Shown piece by piece: positions 2,858 through 44,154 of a DNA stretch of 64,000 nt. Each line of letters starts with the position of its first letter. The first letter of the stretch is position 1. Source of the stretch: Limnochordaceae bacterium. Lineage in GTDB: Bacteria; Bacillota; Limnochordia; Limnochordales; Geochordaceae. The DNA lies in contig JADBKR010000006.1 of the NCBI GenBank assembly GCA_014896295.1, forward strand, positions 62,001-126,000, written 5' to 3'. The notes below the pieces were generated by a model. That model saw only the letters and a list, made by a program, of their open reading frames with translations, did not search any database and had not been told where the DNA came from. The position numbers were made by a program, and so were the translations under genes.

Positions 2858-5800
2858 GTGCATCCCTGGTGCGCGCGAGCGTGCCTCCTCTGGCTTGCCT
2901 GCAAGAAGGTCAAGCCGGCGCTTCTTGCCGCATATCTGGCCATCATCGGGGTGCTCGTACGGGATGCCCTGTCCCATGCCCTGCCCCTCGGGCCCGTGGC
3001 GCCGGGTGAGCAGGCGGAGATCGGGCCGGAGCAACTTGCTGCTTCCCAACCCGAGCAGCCCTCTGCAGGGGGCTTCTCGCCGTCGTTGCGCGCCTCGGGG
3101 GAGAGCCTGTGGAACGTGCGCCTCGCCTGGGGCGACGTGGCAGGCCTGCTGGGCCAGGAGGGCTACGCCGCCGGGCAAGCCACCTTCCAACAGCAGCTCC
3201 GGTTACGCCTCGAGGGCGACGTGGCCCCTGGCGCCAAGGTGTCGAGCGACCTGGACAACGTGCGGAGCGAAAACCTCCAGCTCATCGGCATCGACTTCAC
3301 CTGGGGCCCCGCCACCGCACACCTCGGGGACGTCCGGCTCCGATCCGAAAGCCGTTACGCCGCCGGCCCGGCCACGTTGAAAGGGTTGAGCGTCGAGGCT
3401 CGCTGGGGAGCCTGGGAGCTGGGGGCGCTGGCAGGGCGAGCCAGGGGGATTCCCGCGACCAAGACGTTTTACGGCCCGAACAGCGAGGATACCACCCGGT
3501 GGGTGCCGGCCGCCCCTCCGGCCTTCTCGCCTTCGTACGCCCCCACGCGGGAGGGGGCGGCGCTGGTCGCAGACGCCAGGGGCGCGCAAGGCTTTCGCCT
3601 GGCGCGGGCTTTCGAGCCCGACTTCATGAAGGTATGGCTCATTCCCTCCGACTCGGCGCCTGCCGCCGGGTGCGGGGAGACGAGGGACGGCCGTTCCTCG
3701 TTGAAGCAGCTTCTCGACGACTTCGGGCTGGGGTATCTGGTCGACGCCGGGCCGGGCAGCACGCCGCGCGGCGTCCTGAAGCCCCAGCCGTACGCTCCGC
3801 CGTCCCAGCTACCCCCGCCCGGCCTTTCGACCGAGGACGTCGCCCGGGCGTTCTTCCCCCTCGACTCCGGCCGGTTCACGGCGGTGGCGAATCCCGAGGG
3901 AACGTCGCCCCGGGGCTACGTCCTCCTGCAGCTCGAAACCCTCGACCTCCTGCGCTCCCACGTCGAGCTCCTCATCGAGCGGTACAACGAGCTCAACCGC
4001 CTGTCAGGCGCCGGCCGGCGTACCTACCCGTTCGTACGGGGAAGCGACCTGGAGCGCCAGTTTCTCTCGCTCCTGCGCCAGTACTACCGCATCGAGGCAG
4101 GAGCGGGCGACTATCCCGGCGCTTCCGGATGGAGCAGCGCCATGGCGCCCCTGTCGGGCACGGGCGCGAGCGGTCCCGTGGGGGCCTCCTGGCTCGGCAC
4201 CTGCCCGGACTACCGGGAGTACCTGGGCACGGGCACCGCCAACCTCGAGGTCGCACCCGATGGCACCTTCGACCGGTCGAAGGCGCCCGACCCTGCCCGC
4301 ACGCCCGCCTCTGTGCTGTACCTGACGGGCAACGCCGCTTTGCAACAGGATTCGCTGGTCGTCGAGGTGGAGCGGCCCGAAGGAAGTGTCGAGCCGGCGG
4401 ACACGTACGGGTTTTCGTGGATGGTGTTCCCCGAGCAGGGCGTGTTGAAGGTTGCCTTCCCGGCGACCATCGGCGGGGCGCCCGGCACCATCGAGGCGTT
4501 GGCCAGGAGCTTCAGGGCGCTGCAGGCCCGGTACCGCTACCGCGTCTCCGGGGGGATCTACGCGCTCGGCACCTCGGTGGCGGCCGGGAGCGAGGAGGTG
4601 CGGCTCAACGGCCAGCAACTGCGCCGGGACGTCGACTACACCATCGACTACGAGACCGGCGTGCTGGTGCTGCTTCGGGACGCAGGCCCGGCCGACACGA
4701 TCGAGGTGCGCTTCGAGTACTTCCGGGGTGGGCCGGGTGCCACCACCGAGTACAACCGCAACGTGTTGGGCGTGAGGGCGGGATGGAAGCCCGGCGATGC
4801 ATGGCGGGTGGCGGGCGAGCTGTTGTTCGCCGGAGACGAGCCCCGGCCGCTGGTCGCACCGGATCGGGCCCGCACCATGCCCAACTCCCACACGGTCGCC
4901 GCCCTCGTGGGAGGCTACCGGGCATGGCAGGGCGTGCGCCCGGAGCAGGGGTTCTGGGCGGAGCTGGACACAGCGTGGTCGCACGACGTCTTCCCGTTCG
5001 ACGACAACGTGCGGGAGCCGCAGGCCAACGAGGTGCAGGCCATTGCGGGGGGAGTATCCGGCGGCGGGTGGGGCGGTTACGTGCTGCTCGGGCACCGGGC
5101 GGGCCTCACCGTAGGGGCGCTGGACGCTGCGGGCCAGGTGATGCAGGGCACATGGCGGCGGTACGACACGGGCGCCGGGTTGAGCGGGACCAACGTGCTG
5201 GCCGTCGCGGGCGCCGCACGCGGCACGGTGTCGGACGGAAGCCTGGGAGACCCCGTGGGCCCGGTCGAGGCGTGGCTGCTCGGGACGGAGTCCGGGCTTA
5301 CGGCGGTCGTCGACGCCGGGCAGGGTCCCGCCAGCTTCGAGAAGGCGACCAGCTACCTGCGCCGCTACGCGTCCGGCGGGCTTCCGTCCAACGAGGTACG
5401 AGACGTGCTTTACGTCGGGGTCGTGCCCCCGCCTGCGAGCCGGGTAGCCCATGGGCCGGCGGACAAGCCCTCGGTCTGGGTGGCGACGGCCAGAGGCCTG
5501 GCCTGGGCGGGGGCCGGGGAGTGGAACGCGACGAGCCTGGGCGATTGGCACGGCCTGGACGCTGCCGCTCTTCCGCCGTGGCCCGAGGGCGGCTTCCGGT
5601 CGCTGGCCTTCGCCCCGGTGGGACCGCACGATCCAGGAGCGCCGCCCGCGGCCGCCGCGCTGCTCGCGGCCGGGCCCGGCGGTGTGCTGTGGATCCCCCT
5701 GTGGGGACTGGAGGAGGGATGGGGAGCGAGGCACCCACCTCCTTTTCGAGGGCCAGCCGGTCGACAGGGTAGCGGCGGTCTGTCTGGACTGCTCGCAAGG

Positions 5801-7880
5801 CTCCACGCAAGGGCTGCACGTGCGCATCTTCGCCGGGGGCGAAGCAGGGTTGGAGTGGCTCGACGTCGCCCCGGGGGGCGGGCCCACCGGCGCGGGCGGG
5901 CAGGGGAGCACGGGCAGCTCGCAAGTCGGCGGGGTGGCCGGTAGGGTGCGCTCCCTGCGGCTTGTGTCCGGGAAGCTCTGGGTGGGCACGGACCGGGGAC
6001 TGTACCGGATCGACCCCGGCGCGCCGGGGCGCCTTCCCGCGGTCACCTATCGCGCAGACCCCGGGATGGCTGGCCCGGTCACGGCCGCCGGCATCGTGCC
6101 GGCCGGCGCCGGGTCGCCGGGACAGCCCTCGCTGCAGCTCTGGGTGGCGACCCGGCCGCAAGACGCCGGACAGCCCGGGCTGTTCACGCTGGATCCGGCG
6201 GTCGACCCGCCGCCGGCGCCGCAGCCGCTGGCCGGGGAGACGTTGCCCTCCGAGCAGGCGTTGCCGGCCCGCGATCCCGCTCGATACCGGGACCCGGAGC
6301 GGCGCGCGGTCTACGACGGGCTCGCCGGCCGGTTCGACCTGGGCTACGCCTGGCCGCAGGGCGGGGTGGAGGCCGGGTACGAGCGGGTGGACGCCCCGTT
6401 TCTCGCCATCAACGACGTCGAGCGCCGGGAGGTAGAGGCGTGGCACGTCGCGGTGCGGCACCGCTTTGGGGAGAGCGTGGGGGTCGAGGTGAGCCATGCC
6501 GACCGCCGGACGGCCGACCCGCGACTTGCCCGCCAGGAGCCGGATGGGCCGGGCGAGTCGCCGGGTACGAGCGTCCGGCACATCCAGCGCACCCTCACCG
6601 ACGAGGCCACGGTCACGTGGACGCTGCCCGTGCCGGCGCCCGCCACGTGGATGGGCCCGCCCGAGCTGCGGGGCAGCGTGCGGTGGGACCGGATCGACCG
6701 GGACGAGGCGGCCGCAGGGTGGGAGGTGACGGTCTCGAGCCGGAGCCTCCAGCTGCAGGAGAGCTTCTGGGACCGGCGCCTCGTCGCGGCGGTCGGGTAC
6801 GAAAACCTGCGCTACCGGGAAGCAGGCGTGGCCGGCTACGTCGCGCACAACCTGCTGGCCGACCTGACGGCGACTCCCGCGCAGGACGTGACGCTGAGCG
6901 TGCGATTCCGCTATCCGCTCAGGGTGCACGACCTGGACGCTGCCGCAGGTTGGGCGTACGGGGCGGCGGCGTCGCGCCTCGAGGGCGCCCAGGACCTGCA
7001 GCTGGGAGCCACCGCCAGCCGCAACCTGGGCCTGGTGCGCACCACGCTCGACCTCAGCCAGCAGTCGGGCTGGCAGGTGACCGACCGGGGAGTGACCCCG
7101 GACCGCCTCGAGCGGCAGGCCCGGGTGTCGCTCGCTGCGCCCACGCTGGCGGCGGGGCCGTGGACGTTCTCCCCGGCCGGGCGGATCGAATGGGCCTATA
7201 CAGGTTCGCCGCTTTCACGGGCGACGACCACGGGCGCCGGCGGCAGCCTTCAGGCCGCGTGGCAACCTGCCTCCCTCAATCTGACGCTGGATGCGAGCCG
7301 CCGGTACCAGCAGGCGGAGTTTCCGGGGGCGCGGCGCGCCGTGGACGACCGGCTGTCCTTGACGGCCGGCACCGAGGCGTTTGCGTGGGTCGACCCGTCC
7401 CTCACCCTTTCCCGGGACGCCCGCCACGTCACCACCCTCGGTGACGGGCGCCAGACCACGACGCAGACGTACGCCGCCACGCTGCGGCTCGGGTGGAAAG
7501 GTATGACCCGGTGGCCCCAATCGACACGCCTCGGAGTGCGCTGGACCGGCGAACCAACGGCCGCAAAGGGCAGCCGCAGCGTGGAGTGGAGTCACTCCGT
7601 GGCATGGGAACCGGAGGGGCCGTGGCGCTTTTCTGCCTCGGCCGGCGGTGCCCGGGGCGAGGCGTGGGATGCGGGGGCGGCGCCGAAACCCCAGTGGCGG
7701 CTCGAAGTATCGGGCCAGGTGAGCTACCGGTTCTCGGCCCGGTGGAGCGGCGGGCTGGAGGTAGGCTACGCCCGCGGGCAACAACCCCCGAGCTGGATGA
7801 GCGCGGGCTCGATCGCCGCCGGAGACCCCGTCCCGTTCCAGGCGGGGTGGACACGCCTCTTCGTGCAGGCCACGTTTTGA
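2858..7880 (+). CDS. SprA-like giant surface/outer-membrane protein with beta-propeller repeats; frameshift near 5721
   Basis: With one base removed from the GGGG at 5721-5724 this is a single protein of about 1673 residues. A signal-like hydrophobic stretch lies at residues 18-38. Residues 108-200 (FQQQLRLRLEGDV, LGDVRLRSESRYAAGPATLK) resemble the repeated N-terminal unit of SprA, the type 9 secretion translocon. Around residue 580 comes VRLNGQQLRRDVDYTIDYET, the hallmark SprA-type strand motif. Residues 775-1055 hold two-component-regulator-type propeller repeats (GLPSNEVRDVLYV, LWVGTDRGLYRID). The C-terminal 550 residues alternate as beta strands and end in TRLFVQATF, a barrel-type terminal aromatic. 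GTG 2858 gives the signal sequence; GTG 2819 is possible. Family assignment is by eye. Confidence 0.62.
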
Positions 7881-8226
7881 GCTAAGTCCTTTCCAACAAA
7901 GGAAACGAAGCCCAACTCAGGTTCCATGCCTCCAAATACGGCAGCTCGGCCCTCTTCTTTCTTCGATTCAACTCGTTTCAATTCGACGTTTGCCGTCAAG
8001 GATTCGATCGTACCGGAGCCTAATTCCAGGAAGCGTTCCCAACTTCGCGTGGTCCCCCGCCACGAACGGCACCCCGCGTTTTCGCGCCTTTCACGCCTGC
8101 GACGGGCGCTCGACGCGCGTGGGCCGCGGGGCCGGCGGTAGGAGGGGGGTGGGCCAGCCGGGGGAAGCGAGACTGCCGCGTGCGTGGGAAGGGACGAGCG
8201 CAGGCACGGGAAGGGAGGCTCGATCT
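7881..8226 (+). other. Intergenic region, locally AT-richer, before the protease gene
   Basis: This 346-base gap holds no convincing gene. Positions 7900-8030 are clearly less GC-rich than the surroundings, with CTTTCTTCGATTCAACTCG and related pyrimidine-rich stretches, as expected for a promoter or leader. A short CCTTT/AAAGG hairpin at 7887-7901 follows the upstream stop codon and could be a weak terminator. No well-spaced -35/-10 pair stands out. Confidence 0.35.
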
Positions 8227-10737
8227 GTGACGTTACGGGTGTCTAAGCTCTGGGGCCTGGCAGCCGGCTTGCTGCTGATCGTCCTGCTCGTGGCCGCCGC
8301 TGCGGGTGCGGCGCCGGGCAGCGCGACAGGGAGCCGGAGCGGTGCCCGGCTCGACCCGGCGCTCAAGTGGCTTCTCGAGCAGGCGGAGAAGGAGAAGGAG
8401 ATCGATCTGGCGCCGCTCGCCGGCCTGTTTGCGGTGTACCGGGACAACCGGCCCGTCACGGTTCCCATGTTCCGGCCTTCGCAAACGGGCATCCTGGTGC
8501 CGGGCGTCCCATCCCAGGGCTCCGCGGGGGGTCAGGGCCTGAAGCCCTCGGGAGCGGGTGCCGGCAGCGTGGCGTCCAGAGGAGTGCCCGCCGACCGGTT
8601 CGGAGTCTTCGTCATCACCGACAACCCGGGGGTGCTGGCCTCGGTCGGGGCCCGTCCCAATACGGTGGCGGGCAACGTGGTCACCGCCCACCTGACCCTC
8701 GACCAGATTCGCCGCCTGAAGGACGCGCCCGGGGTGCAGGCCATCCGGCTCGGGCGCCGGGTCCGGTTGACGCTCGATCGGAGCGTGCCGGAGATCGGCG
8801 CGCAGGTGCTGCAGACCATGCAGCCTTTCCTGCGGGGAAAGGGCGTCATTTCGGGCGCGGTCGACACGGGCATCTCGTACCTGCACAAAGACTTCCGGGC
8901 CCCCAAAGGGCCGGGCGATCAGGAGGAGCTGGCGTCACGCATTCTGTTCATCTGGGACCAGATGCCCGGCATCAGCTACTTCGGGCCGGGTTGGCCGATG
9001 CCGTGCGCGCCGGCCGATTGCCCCTACAACCCGCCGGCGGGGTTCGGCTACGGCACGGAGTACACGAAAGCGCAGATCGAGCAGGACATCGCCAGCGGCG
9101 TCAGGGATGCGTACGACCCACGGGCCATCGTCAAGGCCGTCGACGACTACGGGCACGGCACGCACGTGGCGGGGATCCAGGCCTCCGACGGCAGCTCGCA
9201 GCCGGCCGGATACCCGGCTCGCTACGTCGGCATGGCGCCCGACTCCGACATCATCATGGTGCGGACGACCCTCCACGACACCGACATCGTGGACGGGGTC
9301 GCGTACATCTTCCGGAAGGCCGACGAGCTGGGCCGGCCTGCCGTGGTCAACCTGAGCCTGGGCGGCCAGTTCGGGCCGCACGACGGGACGGAGGCCTTCG
9401 ACCTCGCCGTCTCCAACCTGGCGAGCAAGCCCGGGCGCATCGTGGTCGTGTCGGCGGGCAACGAGGGATCCGACCGCATCCACGCCGGCGCCGAGGTGAC
9501 GGCGGGCGGGCCGGCTACGTCGGCGAGGTTGACGCTGCCTGACGCGGACCCCTCGACGGCGGGAAACCAGCCCGACCCCGACGGGTATGCCATCTCCCTC
9601 TGGTACCCGGAGGCCAGCCGGTTCACCGTGTCCCTCACCTCGCCCGGCGGTAACACGTATAGCGCGGCCTGGGGGACTGAGCCGGAAGCACCGATCGTCA
9701 CTCCCGACGGATGCATCCTGGTCTCCAACGGCCCGCCGGCCCTGGCGTCGATCGGGTCCGTGCAGCCCGAAACCACGGCCAACCAGGTGGAGATCGAGGT
9801 GCTGGGGTCGCAAGGAGCACCGGGCTGTCCGGCTGACGCCGCCACCGGCACCTGGACGCTCACCGTGAGCCCGGGGGCGGGTTCCCCCGCCGGCCGCTGG
9901 GACGGCTGGATCTACTTCGGCAACGCGACCTTCGACGTGCAGTACGCCGACCCCAACATGACCGTCGGCTCGCCGGGCGTGGCGAAGGGCGTCATCACGG
10001 TCGGGGCGTACATGACCCGGGATCGCTGGCAGAGCATCAACGGCAACGTCGTGGTGCCGCGCACCGAGCCCGTGGGCAGCTACGCTCCCTTCACGAGCCG
10101 CGGCCCCACCCGCGACGGCCGCCAGAAGCCGGAGGTGAGCGCGCCCGGTTCCTGGATCGTGGCGACGGCCGCGAAGGAGTCCGACCTGTACGCGGCGACG
10201 AACTCCACCTTCGGCCCGCAGTACCTGGTCGTCCCCGATCGGGAGCACCTGTCGCTTCAGGGCACGAGCATGGCCGCCCCGCACGTGGCGGGTCTGGCGG
10301 CGCAGATGCTGCAGGCGGTGCCCGGGCTCACCACGCCGGACGTCCGGGACCTGCTGACGAGCACGGCCCGTTCCGACCTCTACACCGGCGTCACGCCCAA
10401 CGTCGTGTGGGGCTACGGCAAGATCGCGGCCGACCGGGCCTACGCCGCCGAGGTGTCGCCGCGCCAGTTCGCCATCCGCGTCGGTCCCAACCCGGCCAGG
10501 GAAGTGGCCACTTTCTACTATTCGCTCGACCGGGACTACCCCTCCGTCACGCTGCTGGTCTACACCGTGGCCGGCCAGCGGGTCTACGAGCAACCTCTGC
10601 CCTCGACGGCCGGCTCCCACTTCGTCCACTGGAACCTGACCAACACCTCGGGCCAGCCCCTGGCCACGGGGATGTACCTGTTCGTGCTCAAGGCCGGAGA
10701 ACGCACGAGTACCGGCAAGCTCCTGGTCGCCCGCTGA
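8227..10737 (+). CDS. Secreted subtilisin-like (S8) serine protease with FlgD/type 9 sorting-like C-terminal domain
   Basis: Exported protease of about 836 residues. A signal peptide (LWGLAAGLLLIVLLVAAAAG) is followed by a propeptide-like region. The S8 domain has Asp213 (GAVDTGISY), His310 (GHGTHVAG), oxyanion Asn412 (SAGNEG) and Ser681 (GTSMAAPHVAG). A beta-rich insertion at about 440-570 sits between Asn412 and Ser681. The last 90 residues (VGPNPAREVATFYYSL to ATGMYLFVLKAG) match the FlgD-Ig/T9SS sorting-domain pattern. The GTG start at 8227 has GGGAGG eight bases upstream and gives a clean signal peptide; the frame open back to 7990 is not signal-like. It sits between the SprA-like and PorV-like genes, suggesting it is their cargo (inference). 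Confidence 0.88.
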   Translation: MTLRVSKLWGLAAGLLLIVLLVAAAAGAAPGSATGSRSGARLDPALKWLLEQAEKEKEIDLAPLAGLFAVYRDNRPVTVPMFRPSQTGILVPGVPSQGSAGGQGLKPSGAGAGSVASRGVPADRFGVFVITDNPGVLASVGARPNTVAGNVVTAHLTLDQIRRLKDAPGVQAIRLGRRVRLTLDRSVPEIGAQVLQTMQPFLRGKGVISGAVDTGISYLHKDFRAPKGPGDQEELASRILFIWDQMPGISYFGPGWPMPCAPADCPYNPPAGFGYGTEYTKAQIEQDIASGVRDAYDPRAIVKAVDDYGHGTHVAGIQASDGSSQPAGYPARYVGMAPDSDIIMVRTTLHDTDIVDGVAYIFRKADELGRPAVVNLSLGGQFGPHDGTEAFDLAVSNLASKPGRIVVVSAGNEGSDRIHAGAEVTAGGPATSARLTLPDADPSTAGNQPDPDGYAISLWYPEASRFTVSLTSPGGNTYSAAWGTEPEAPIVTPDGCILVSNGPPALASIGSVQPETTANQVEIEVLGSQGAPGCPADAATGTWTLTVSPGAGSPAGRWDGWIYFGNATFDVQYADPNMTVGSPGVAKGVITVGAYMTRDRWQSINGNVVVPRTEPVGSYAPFTSRGPTRDGRQKPEVSAPGSWIVATAAKESDLYAATNSTFGPQYLVVPDREHLSLQGTSMAAPHVAGLAAQMLQAVPGLTTPDVRDLLTSTARSDLYTGVTPNVVWGYGKIAADRAYAAEVSPRQFAIRVGPNPAREVATFYYSLDRDYPSVTLLVYTVAGQRVYEQPLPSTAGSHFVHWNLTNTSGQPLATGMYLFVLKAGERTSTGKLLVAR

Positions 10738-10777
10738 GGCGCCGCCGGCGGACAGCAAGAGAGGAGGTACTCCCAGG

Positions 10778-11749
10778 ATGCGAACGCATGACAGCCGGCA
10801 GCGGCAGGGGTATCCGGCGGGTGGGCCGCCCGTGGCACGGCCCGCGACCCGGCATGCCCCGCCCGTGGTGGCAGCGGCGGTGCTCCTGGCCCTGGCTGCG
10901 GCGCTGCCTTGGCCGGCCGCGGCTCGAGCCGCCGACTACGCCCAGACGATGGCGGCCGGGGGCATCGGGTACAGCGCCCGGTTGCTGGGCATGGCGGGCG
11001 TATCGGTCGGCCTGGTCGACGAGACCGCCACGCTCTTCACCAATCCCGCGGCGCTGGCCCTGGTGAGGCGTCCCCACGTGACCACCCTGTACACCCGGCC
11101 GTTCGGCGAGGCCGACCACGTCGCCGTGAGCGGCGGCCTCCCCGGCTTCGCGGCGGGCGGCTCGCTGACCACGAGCGCCGTCGACCGAACGGACGAGTAC
11201 GGCCTGCCCGCAGGCGGCGCCGCCGGGTATCAGGAGCTGACCGTGGCTCTCGGCGGTGCGGCCGCCGTGGCGCGAGCGGCCGGCGCCACGCTCTACGCGG
11301 GCGGGGCTGCGCGCTACTACCGGCAGGCCGTGGCCGACGTGCAGGGCCAGGCGTTTACCGCCGACGTGGGCCTGCTCGTCGAGGCGGGGGCGGCCCAGGT
11401 GGGGATCAGCCGCCGCAACCTGCGGGCGGGGGCGATCGGCGTGGTGCGCTACCAGGACGGCGTCGAAGACCCGCTTGACCCGGCCACGACCATCGGAGCC
11501 GCCGTGCGGTTGGGGCCGGTGCTGGTGGCGGCCGACCATGGCCTCGAGGATGCGACCACCCGGGTGGGCGCCGAAGCGTGGGTGGGACAACTGGCGGTGC
11601 GAGGTGGCGTGGCCTTCGCCCCCGGAGGGGAGCGCCAGGTGAGCCTGGGGGCCGGGGTGGCGCTCGGGGCGGTCAAGGTCGACTACGCGTACCTCATGCA
11701 CCCGGCCCTTCCGGACTCTCACCGCCTGTCGCTCTCCGTCGACCTCTGA
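10778..11749 (+). CDS. PorV/UPF0164-like outer-membrane beta-barrel protein
   Basis: Protein of 323 residues with an N-terminal signal peptide (hydrophobic core VVAAAVLLALAAALPW, likely cleavage after ARA near residue 51). The start of the mature part, SARLLGMAGVSVGLVDETAT followed by LFTNPAALAL, follows the PorV/PorQ/UPF0164 signature (G-A-R-xLGMGGAxVAxxDD-xxxxxNPAxL). The remainder is alternating beta-strand sequence ending in SLSVDL. In Bacteroidota, PorV is the outer-membrane shuttle that works with SprA. AGAGGAGGT lies about ten bases upstream of the ATG. It directly follows the protease with a 40-base gap, probably in the same transcript. Confidence 0.68.
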   Translation: MRTHDSRQRQGYPAGGPPVARPATRHAPPVVAAAVLLALAAALPWPAAARAADYAQTMAAGGIGYSARLLGMAGVSVGLVDETATLFTNPAALALVRRPHVTTLYTRPFGEADHVAVSGGLPGFAAGGSLTTSAVDRTDEYGLPAGGAAGYQELTVALGGAAAVARAAGATLYAGGAARYYRQAVADVQGQAFTADVGLLVEAGAAQVGISRRNLRAGAIGVVRYQDGVEDPLDPATTIGAAVRLGPVLVAADHGLEDATTRVGAEAWVGQLAVRGGVAFAPGGERQVSLGAGVALGAVKVDYAYLMHPALPDSHRLSLSVDL

Positions 11750-43099: not shown

Positions 43100-44154
43100 T
43101 TGCCATCTCGGAAGGTCGTGATCCTGGGTGCAGGCCTGATGGGCGAGGTGCACTACCGAGCCTGGAAGGCGCTCGAAGCCGAGGGCGTCGAGGTCGTGGC
43201 GGTCGCCAAGTCGGACGGGCGCCCCAGGGCGTGGCTGCAGCGCGAGCAGGAGAGTCGGGGCGGGCAGGTGCCCCGCATCGTTGCGGGTTACCGAGAGGCC
43301 ATCGCGTTGCCCGGGGTGGACATCGTCGACGTCTGCCTGCCGACGCCCTTGCACCGTGACGCCATCGAGGCGGCGGCAGCCGCGGGCAAGGCCGTCGTTT
43401 GCGAGAAGCCTCTGGCTCGTTCGGCGGCGGAGGCCGAGGCCGCCGTCGAGGCAGCCGCCCGCCGCGGGGTGCCGTTCATGGTGGCGCAGGTGGTGCGCTT
43501 CTTCCCGGACTACCGGCTGGCCCGGGAGGCCGTCGTGTGCGGCCAGCTCGGCGTGGCCCGCTCCGCCCGGTGCTTCCGGGTGGCGCCGTACCCGCCTGGA
43601 ACACGTGGATGCGAGACGAGTCGCAAAGCGGTGGGGTCATCGTGGACATGCTCGTTCACGACATCGACTACCTGCGCTGGATCTTCGGGCCGGTGGCACG
43701 GGTGTCGGCCGTGAAGACCTCGACGGGCTCGTCGGGGGAGCAGCACGCGGCCGTGCTCCTGCGCTTCGAAAACGGCGCCATTGCCATGGCCGAGGGCGCG
43801 TGGAGTTTCCCGCCGGGGGCGCCGTTCACGACCGAGGCGGAGATTGCGGGGACGCAGGGGCTTTTGCAGTGGTCGAGCCACGGGGCGGAGAGCGTGCGCT
43901 CGTGGCGCAGGCCGCCCCGGGCATCGCAGGCGGGGGAGGCGGCGGGTGCGCCGGGGCCCGAGGCGGAGACCCGGCTGCCGGCCAGCCCGCTCGACCCCGA
44001 CCCGTACACGCTGGAGCTCGAGCACTTCCTCGAGCACGTCACGAAGGGCTCGCCGCTCGACATCACGCCCGAGGAGGCGCTGGCCGCCGTGCGGGTGGCG
44101 GAAGCGGCCAACCGGGCGGCGCTCGAGGGCCGGCCGGTGGAGGTGCATGCATGA
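43100..44154 (+). CDS. Gfo/Idh/MocA-family oxidoreductase, frameshifted near 43595
   Basis: NAD(P)-dependent sugar dehydrogenase of about 351 residues. The N-terminal Rossmann part reads KVVILGAGLMGEVHYRAWKA with VDIVDVCLPTPLHRDAIEAA and CEKPLARS (conserved EKP lysine). The C-terminal part, WNTWMRDESQSGGVIVDMLV then HDIDYLRWIFGPV, lies in another frame. Adding one C at 43595 restores PPWNTW. TTG 43100 has GGGGAGGAGGGG seven bases upstream. Its stop overlaps the next dehydrogenase start. The substrate is probably an inositol or sugar derivative. Confidence 0.86.

Follow-up and report, generated by a model that had tools for sequence, protein, structure and literature searches.

A putative type 9-like protein secretion cassette in the Limnochordia and the Bipolaricaulota

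Organization of the locus

The window analyzed here is a stretch of 64,000 nucleotides from G000, a high-GC Limnochordaceae genome of 2.89 Mb, and the locus of interest lies at positions 2858-11749 of the window (G000:C6:64858-73749). It consists of three adjacent, co-directional genes on the + strand, encoding a giant SprA-like protein, a secreted S8 protease and a PorV-like barrel, as a sequence-only reading of the window had described. The features of the locus are as follows.

2858..5731, + strand: SprA-like gene, part 1, with the N-terminal barrel strands, the plug domain and the start of the propeller (TIGR04189, the intact G001 homologue, structural model)
5732..7880, + strand: SprA-like gene, part 2, in the next frame, with the remaining propeller and the C-terminal barrel strands (tblastn with the G001 protein)
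3104..3430 (approximate), + strand: N-terminal SprA signature region, LRLEGD..SSDLDN..NLQL..GD..L.G (profile A3)
4520..4717, + strand: second SprA signature, GSEEVRLNGQQLRRDVDYTIDYETG (TIGR04189 match, P0001 568-633; profile)
5030..6270 (approximate), + strand: beta-propeller insert (Reg_prop/PorZ-like) in the SprA-like protein (profile matches; propeller of the L094 model)
8239..10737 (about), + strand: secreted S8 (subtilisin-like) protease (Pfam; intact catalytic motifs; full-length Bipolaricaulota homologue)
10480..10737, + strand: C-terminal type A-like sorting domain of the protease, PNPAR...GMYLFVL...KLLVAR (TIGR04183; profile A5)
10778 or 10865..11749, + strand: PorV-like shuttle barrel (PorV_fam; profile A4)

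The SprA-like gene is interrupted as assembled. Its open reading frame begins at a start codon within 2819-2858 and extends to 5944 in one frame, then continues in the next frame on to 7880, such that the full protein counted across the break is ~1680 aa. When the intact 1586-aa homologue of sister genome G001 is aligned to the window with tblastn, its residues 20-839 match in frame 2 at 48% identity and its residues 934-1586 match in frame 3, at 5820-7877, at 38% identity; the two open reading frames are a single gene with one frameshift at about 5720-5740 (5.73 kb), a position set by eye from the reading frames and the tblastn alignment and falling inside the beta-propeller insert. Four more frameshift-like breaks are present in the window, near 43580, 51290, 53330 and 56940, all of them in ordinary metabolic genes, which suggests indel errors in the assembly. 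With these genes broken as well, the frameshift of the SprA-like gene more probably reflects an assembly error than real damage.

A giant SprA-like protein and a PorV-like partner

From a single sequence, the resemblance to SprA is short. The window protein matches TIGR04189 over 66 residues (aa 568-633; 1.8e-8, 32.1 bits) and the G001 protein scores 38 bits, both below the cut-off of 200, and the Pfam SprA_N model matches neither the window protein nor anything else in its own genome, in searches where no control gave a match. The match is convincing once family profiles and structure are added. A profile of the SprA-like family, drawn from 61 relatives and searched against all PDB sequences, finds SprA (6h3i_A, 1.8e-7) in two collinear stretches, with profile positions 36-145 pairing with SprA residues 146-260 and positions 406-488 with residues 697-777. 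The remaining strong matches of the profile are beta-propellers (4a2l, 1.4e-33; PorZ 5m11, 6.1e-7), and with these set aside SprA is the sole outer-membrane protein at E<0.01. PDB entries 6h3i, 8gl6 and 8gl8 represent the SprA/Sov translocon with PorV from Flavobacterium johnsoniae.

Two AlphaFold models point in the same direction. The first covers residues 24-1223 of L094, a near-complete 1257-aa relative (mean pLDDT 89), and begins with long strands at its N-terminus, followed by a plug-like domain, a second set of strands, the beta-propeller (residues 515-787) and lastly another 23 long strands. The predicted fold consists mostly of the long strands of a putative barrel. VIA-align matches of this model (Z up to 26) all fall to the propeller and are uninformative on the barrel. 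By Foldseek against the PDB, four SprA structures occupy ranks 1-4 (1.3e-19 to 4.4e-12), ahead of the next match at 3.3e-8, in alignments that run nearly end to end at a very low identity of 7-8%, as expressed over the structural alignment. The second model, of the window protein itself up to the frameshift (912 aa, window 2996-5731; pLDDT 77), again places the four SprA structures at ranks 1-4, with E values of 1.1e-15 to 6e-6 and a fifth match at 1.1e-4. The sequence-only reading had claimed a SprA-like giant barrel and had made that claim depend on profile similarity and on the predicted structure; the similarity was found, and SprA heads the matches of both models.

The PorV-like protein of the window matches PorV_fam (NF033709) at 4.9e-14 and 52.6 bits, below the 90-bit cut-off, and the same family model is matched by all 27/27 of the PorV-like proteins aligned. 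When the family profile A4 is compared with the PDB, a single match is significant, to the PorV chain of the SprA complex (6h3i_F, 2.2e-9), in line with the PorV-like barrel claimed earlier. Distances among SprA-like and among PorV-like proteins are correlated (r 0.89), although we do not count this as evidence because shared species history would produce the same correlation.

These comparisons also bear on a rival explanation, in which the giant barrel would belong to the LptD type or to another generic kind of large outer-membrane barrel (serving LPS or lipid export or S-layer anchoring), the PorV-like protein would transport substrates in the manner of FadL, and the protease would merely happen to be encoded next to them. 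LptD (1.8e-7) and SlpA (3.2e-6) are indeed among the Foldseek matches of the L094 model, and one FadL-like structure appears in the PorV profile search at E 0.48. LptD is not the best-matching fold, however, SprA scoring some twelve orders of magnitude better and aligning over almost the whole model; outside the propeller matches SprA is the one outer-membrane protein that its profile finds at E<0.01, PorV is the one significant PDB match of its family, and the linkage of the three genes is kept across two phyla. We therefore regard this explanation as improbable.

A tagged S8 protease

The protease of the window contains a Peptidase_S8 domain (Pfam, 1.9e-40) with all three catalytic triad motifs intact (AVDTGI, HGTHVAG and GTSMA), and is a full-length homologue of the Bipolaricaulota cassette protease, at 37% identity over 819 aa. 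Its C-terminus matches FlgD_ig (1.1e-8) and also exceeds the 23-bit cut-off of the type A sorting domain model TIGR04183 (Por_Secre_tail), scoring 25.1 bits, or 30.2 bits when the genome was searched. The sequence-only reading had proposed just such a protein, an S8 protease that is secreted and ends in a region resembling FlgD and T9SS sorting domains. Only two TIGR04183 proteins are encoded genome-wide in G000, and these are the proteases of its two cassettes; eight other genomes tested encode from 1 to 10.

FlgD_ig is the best Pfam match of the C-terminal domain, and FlgD structures match profile A5, built from these domains, at 4.8e-4, raising the alternative that the domain is a mere FlgD- or Ig-like structural or surface-binding module and that the SprA-PorV pair secretes some other substrate. 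In the same search, though, the PorU C-terminal domain (CTD; 6za2, 3.5e-9) and PorZ (2e-4) score better than FlgD, and a T9SS CTD (8glj, 5.8e-4) scores about equally. The domain stops at the very C-terminus of the protein with a conserved RLVIxR-like end, it is restricted to the cassettes in G000, and its pairing with PorV persists even where SprA is encoded elsewhere (see below), all of which make this alternative unlikely, to about the same degree as the one above.

Linkage and distribution

Absence of the three-gene linkage from relatives would have counted against the sequence-only reading, but the genes are found side by side in related genomes, in another cassette of G000 itself, and throughout the Bipolaricaulota. 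The second G000 cassette, at G000:C7:169343-178576 (L019 9343-18576), contains an M6 metalloprotease with a sorting domain, a PorV-like gene and a SprA-like gene, the latter two with several frameshifts as assembled. The G001 cassette encodes a SprA-like protein, an S8 cargo of 3477 aa and PorV, and that of G002 a SprA-like protein, an M6 protease and PorV. Among named genomes, the SprA-like family is present in Bacillota MAGs and in Candidatus Bipolaricaulota/Acetothermia, and the three genes are together at 13 loci on 13 named contigs.

Of 81 relatives searched, seven encode the SprA-like protein, and an eighth hit, in G026, is a short match to a protein of 797 aa. PorV-like proteins scoring >200 bits are present in 7/7 genomes with the SprA-like protein and in 0/74 others (Fisher 2.9e-10, with kinship ignored). 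In G008, G010 and G071 SprA is located elsewhere, yet PorV adjoins a sorting-domain protein. G004 has a single SprA-like gene alongside some eight close PorV genes, and almost all of the latter adjoin sorting-domain proteins.

Within the Bipolaricaulota, 90 of 100 genomes encode the SprA-like protein. The order sorting-domain protein, PorV, SprA-like, on one strand and with gaps mostly <120 bp, is seen at 46 of 58 loci, and two further loci end at a contig edge after PorV. In every case where Pfam was applied to the sorting-domain protein that precedes PorV and SprA, it proved to be an S8 protease. In a tree, a single branch separates the SprA-like proteins of Limnochordia from those of Bipolaricaulota, as two internally diverse clades. 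Neither the spread to the Bipolaricaulota, nor the frameshift, nor the propeller insert had been part of the sequence-only reading. Published work places SprA, PorV and the type A CTD in Bacteroidota and perhaps in further FCB phyla (PMC11285876), but a recent acquisition from Bacteroidota, or contamination of the contigs, is very improbable given the two separate clades, the great sequence distance from SprA, the propeller insert of the SprA-like proteins, the near-universal presence in Bipolaricaulota, and the occurrence of the SprA-like protein in the single-contig genomes G001 and G004.

A number of other genes with similarity to these components were noted. A third PorV-like gene of G000 (G000:C8:643303-644124; L032, L166) is an orphan beside sugar-phosphate enzyme genes, with no sorting-domain partner nearby. 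Many Bipolaricaulota have a second, convergent pair of PorV and sorting-domain genes on the other flank of the SprA-like gene (L097-L099, L104-L108, L110, L125 and L126), and the one sorting-domain protein of such a pair that was tested contains PKD domains. A divergent PorV-like gene (~130 bits) adjoins that of a putative outer-membrane protein of 1276-1307 aa beside a chemotaxis cluster (L164 9854-14937; L167 5624-10562); the L167 outer-membrane protein weakly matches the SprA-like profile (6e-10), and these pairs are possibly another lineage of the PorV/SprA-like pair. In genomes lacking the SprA-like protein, a PorV-like gene lies near genes identified by eye as BamA and OmpH (L163 4903-11053; L165 5378-9664). 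At L027 2-3773, a gene directly downstream of one that by eye is TamB-like encodes a protein of 797 aa in which the second SprA signature alone is present. Finally, the SprA signature is present in proteins of ~1150-1816 aa from WOR-3, Desantisbacteria, Chthonomonas and others (L056-L062), a possible wider SprA-like family.

Motor and sortase components

PorL and PorM (GldL and GldM) constitute the proton-driven motor of the T9SS. GldM was found in 0 of 20 genomes, with no convincing match in a search of six, and GldL in 0 of 6; both searches were run with no T9SS-positive control genome. The C25 peptidase (PorU-type sortase) is absent from 21 of 22 genomes, including G000, and was found in G159, with no control genome matched in this search. 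ExbD/TolR, searched for with working controls, is present in 7/7 Limnochordia-type genomes and 1/15 Bipolaricaulota; as it is missing from 14/15 Bipolaricaulota, we rejected it as a general energizer of the system.

Discussion

The products of the three genes probably form a T9SS-like unit for protein secretion across the outer membrane. They are homologs of the translocon, the shuttle and a signal-bearing cargo, their genes are linked and co-occur, and the predicted fold of the largest is closest to that of SprA; that the unit transports its protease, that the protease leaves laterally, and that it may process other proteins, we infer. The core is homologous to that of the T9SS, and because the GldM motor and the C25 sortase were mostly not found we consider the cassette a relative of that system and not a canonical member. 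The proposal of an undescribed or minimal T9SS relative in a probable diderm member of the Bacillota is supported in this form, and the evidence seems to us stronger than was claimed for it.

In F. johnsoniae, the translocon is a 36-strand SprA with PorV across a lateral opening, through which cargo exits CTD-first with PorV (PMC10994853). By analogy, we propose that the protease would be exported by Sec and would enter the SprA-like giant barrel, where its C-terminal Ig-like sorting domain would be recognized inside the pore; the PorV-like barrel would then take it over at the lateral opening, and lateral release would deliver it to the cell surface, either together with PorV or from it. The beta-propeller built into the SprA-like protein is the main structural addition. 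In genomes with extra PorV-cargo pairs encoded elsewhere, these pairs presumably feed one SprA-like translocon. The cassette protease could be the main cargo only, or could also act as a PorU-like processor of the sorting domains of other cargo; we tentatively favor the latter because its position is kept in genomes with other tagged proteins.

A broader and more tentative reading, which we put at somewhat short of even, is that type 9 transport exists here in an ancient form that runs without the GldLM motor, a cassette of translocon, shuttle and tagged protease that is core in the Bipolaricaulota and retained in diderm Bacillota. If so, either the core of the T9SS predates the Bacteroidota system or distant diderm phyla have exchanged it, and lateral release by PorV can run on power other than GldLM.

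The T9SS has been reported in Bacteroidota only (PMC4793230), or perhaps in other FCB phyla too, and has been stated to be absent elsewhere (PMC11285876). No such system is described in the literature that we found on Limnochordia or Bipolaricaulota, which included few subscription papers and bioRxiv preprints. Microscopy shows an outer membrane in Limnochordia, with diderm members in culture (PMC11456536); a study of Bipolaricaulota left their envelope type undecided and noted a single extracellular protease in its genome (PMC6092417). A SprA-PorV-tagged-protease cluster in both groups would carry the T9SS to very distant phyla, would speak for the presence of an outer membrane in Bipolaricaulota, and would offer a small natural system for probing the purpose of the motor.

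Comparison with known systems

The cassette is best described as T9SS-like, with translocon, shuttle and signal in common and a fused beta-propeller in addition, a combination that appears to be undescribed. Like SprA/Sov-PorV, it combines a predicted giant barrel, in which a plug-like domain separates the N-terminal strands from later ones, with a PorV-family partner and with cargo that ends in an Ig-like sorting domain. In contrast to SprA/Sov, the SprA-like proteins are about 1260-1680 aa, as opposed to 2403, and contain the internal propeller; the partner and a protease share one operon-like cluster, and the genomes lie outside the FCB group. In the genomes searched, moreover, no GldM was found and C25 peptidase is almost absent.

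PorU is a C25 sortase that carries a CTD itself, and PorZ consists of beta-propellers with a CTD. The cassette resembles PorU in having a tagged protease, and among PDB entries its sorting domain matches the PorU CTD best; the protease is, however, of the S8 family (M6 in the second cassette) and not C25. Both the propeller and the CTD of PorZ are matched by cassette profiles, although in the cassette the propeller forms part of the SprA-like protein.

A further parallel is with the specialized cargo-shuttle pairs formed by type B CTDs and PorP/SprF (PMC12618676). As in G004, these are dedicated pairs of genes lying side by side and away from the translocon gene; here, however, PorV-like shuttles are paired with type A-like domains, whereas the type A cargo of Flavobacterium shares one PorV.
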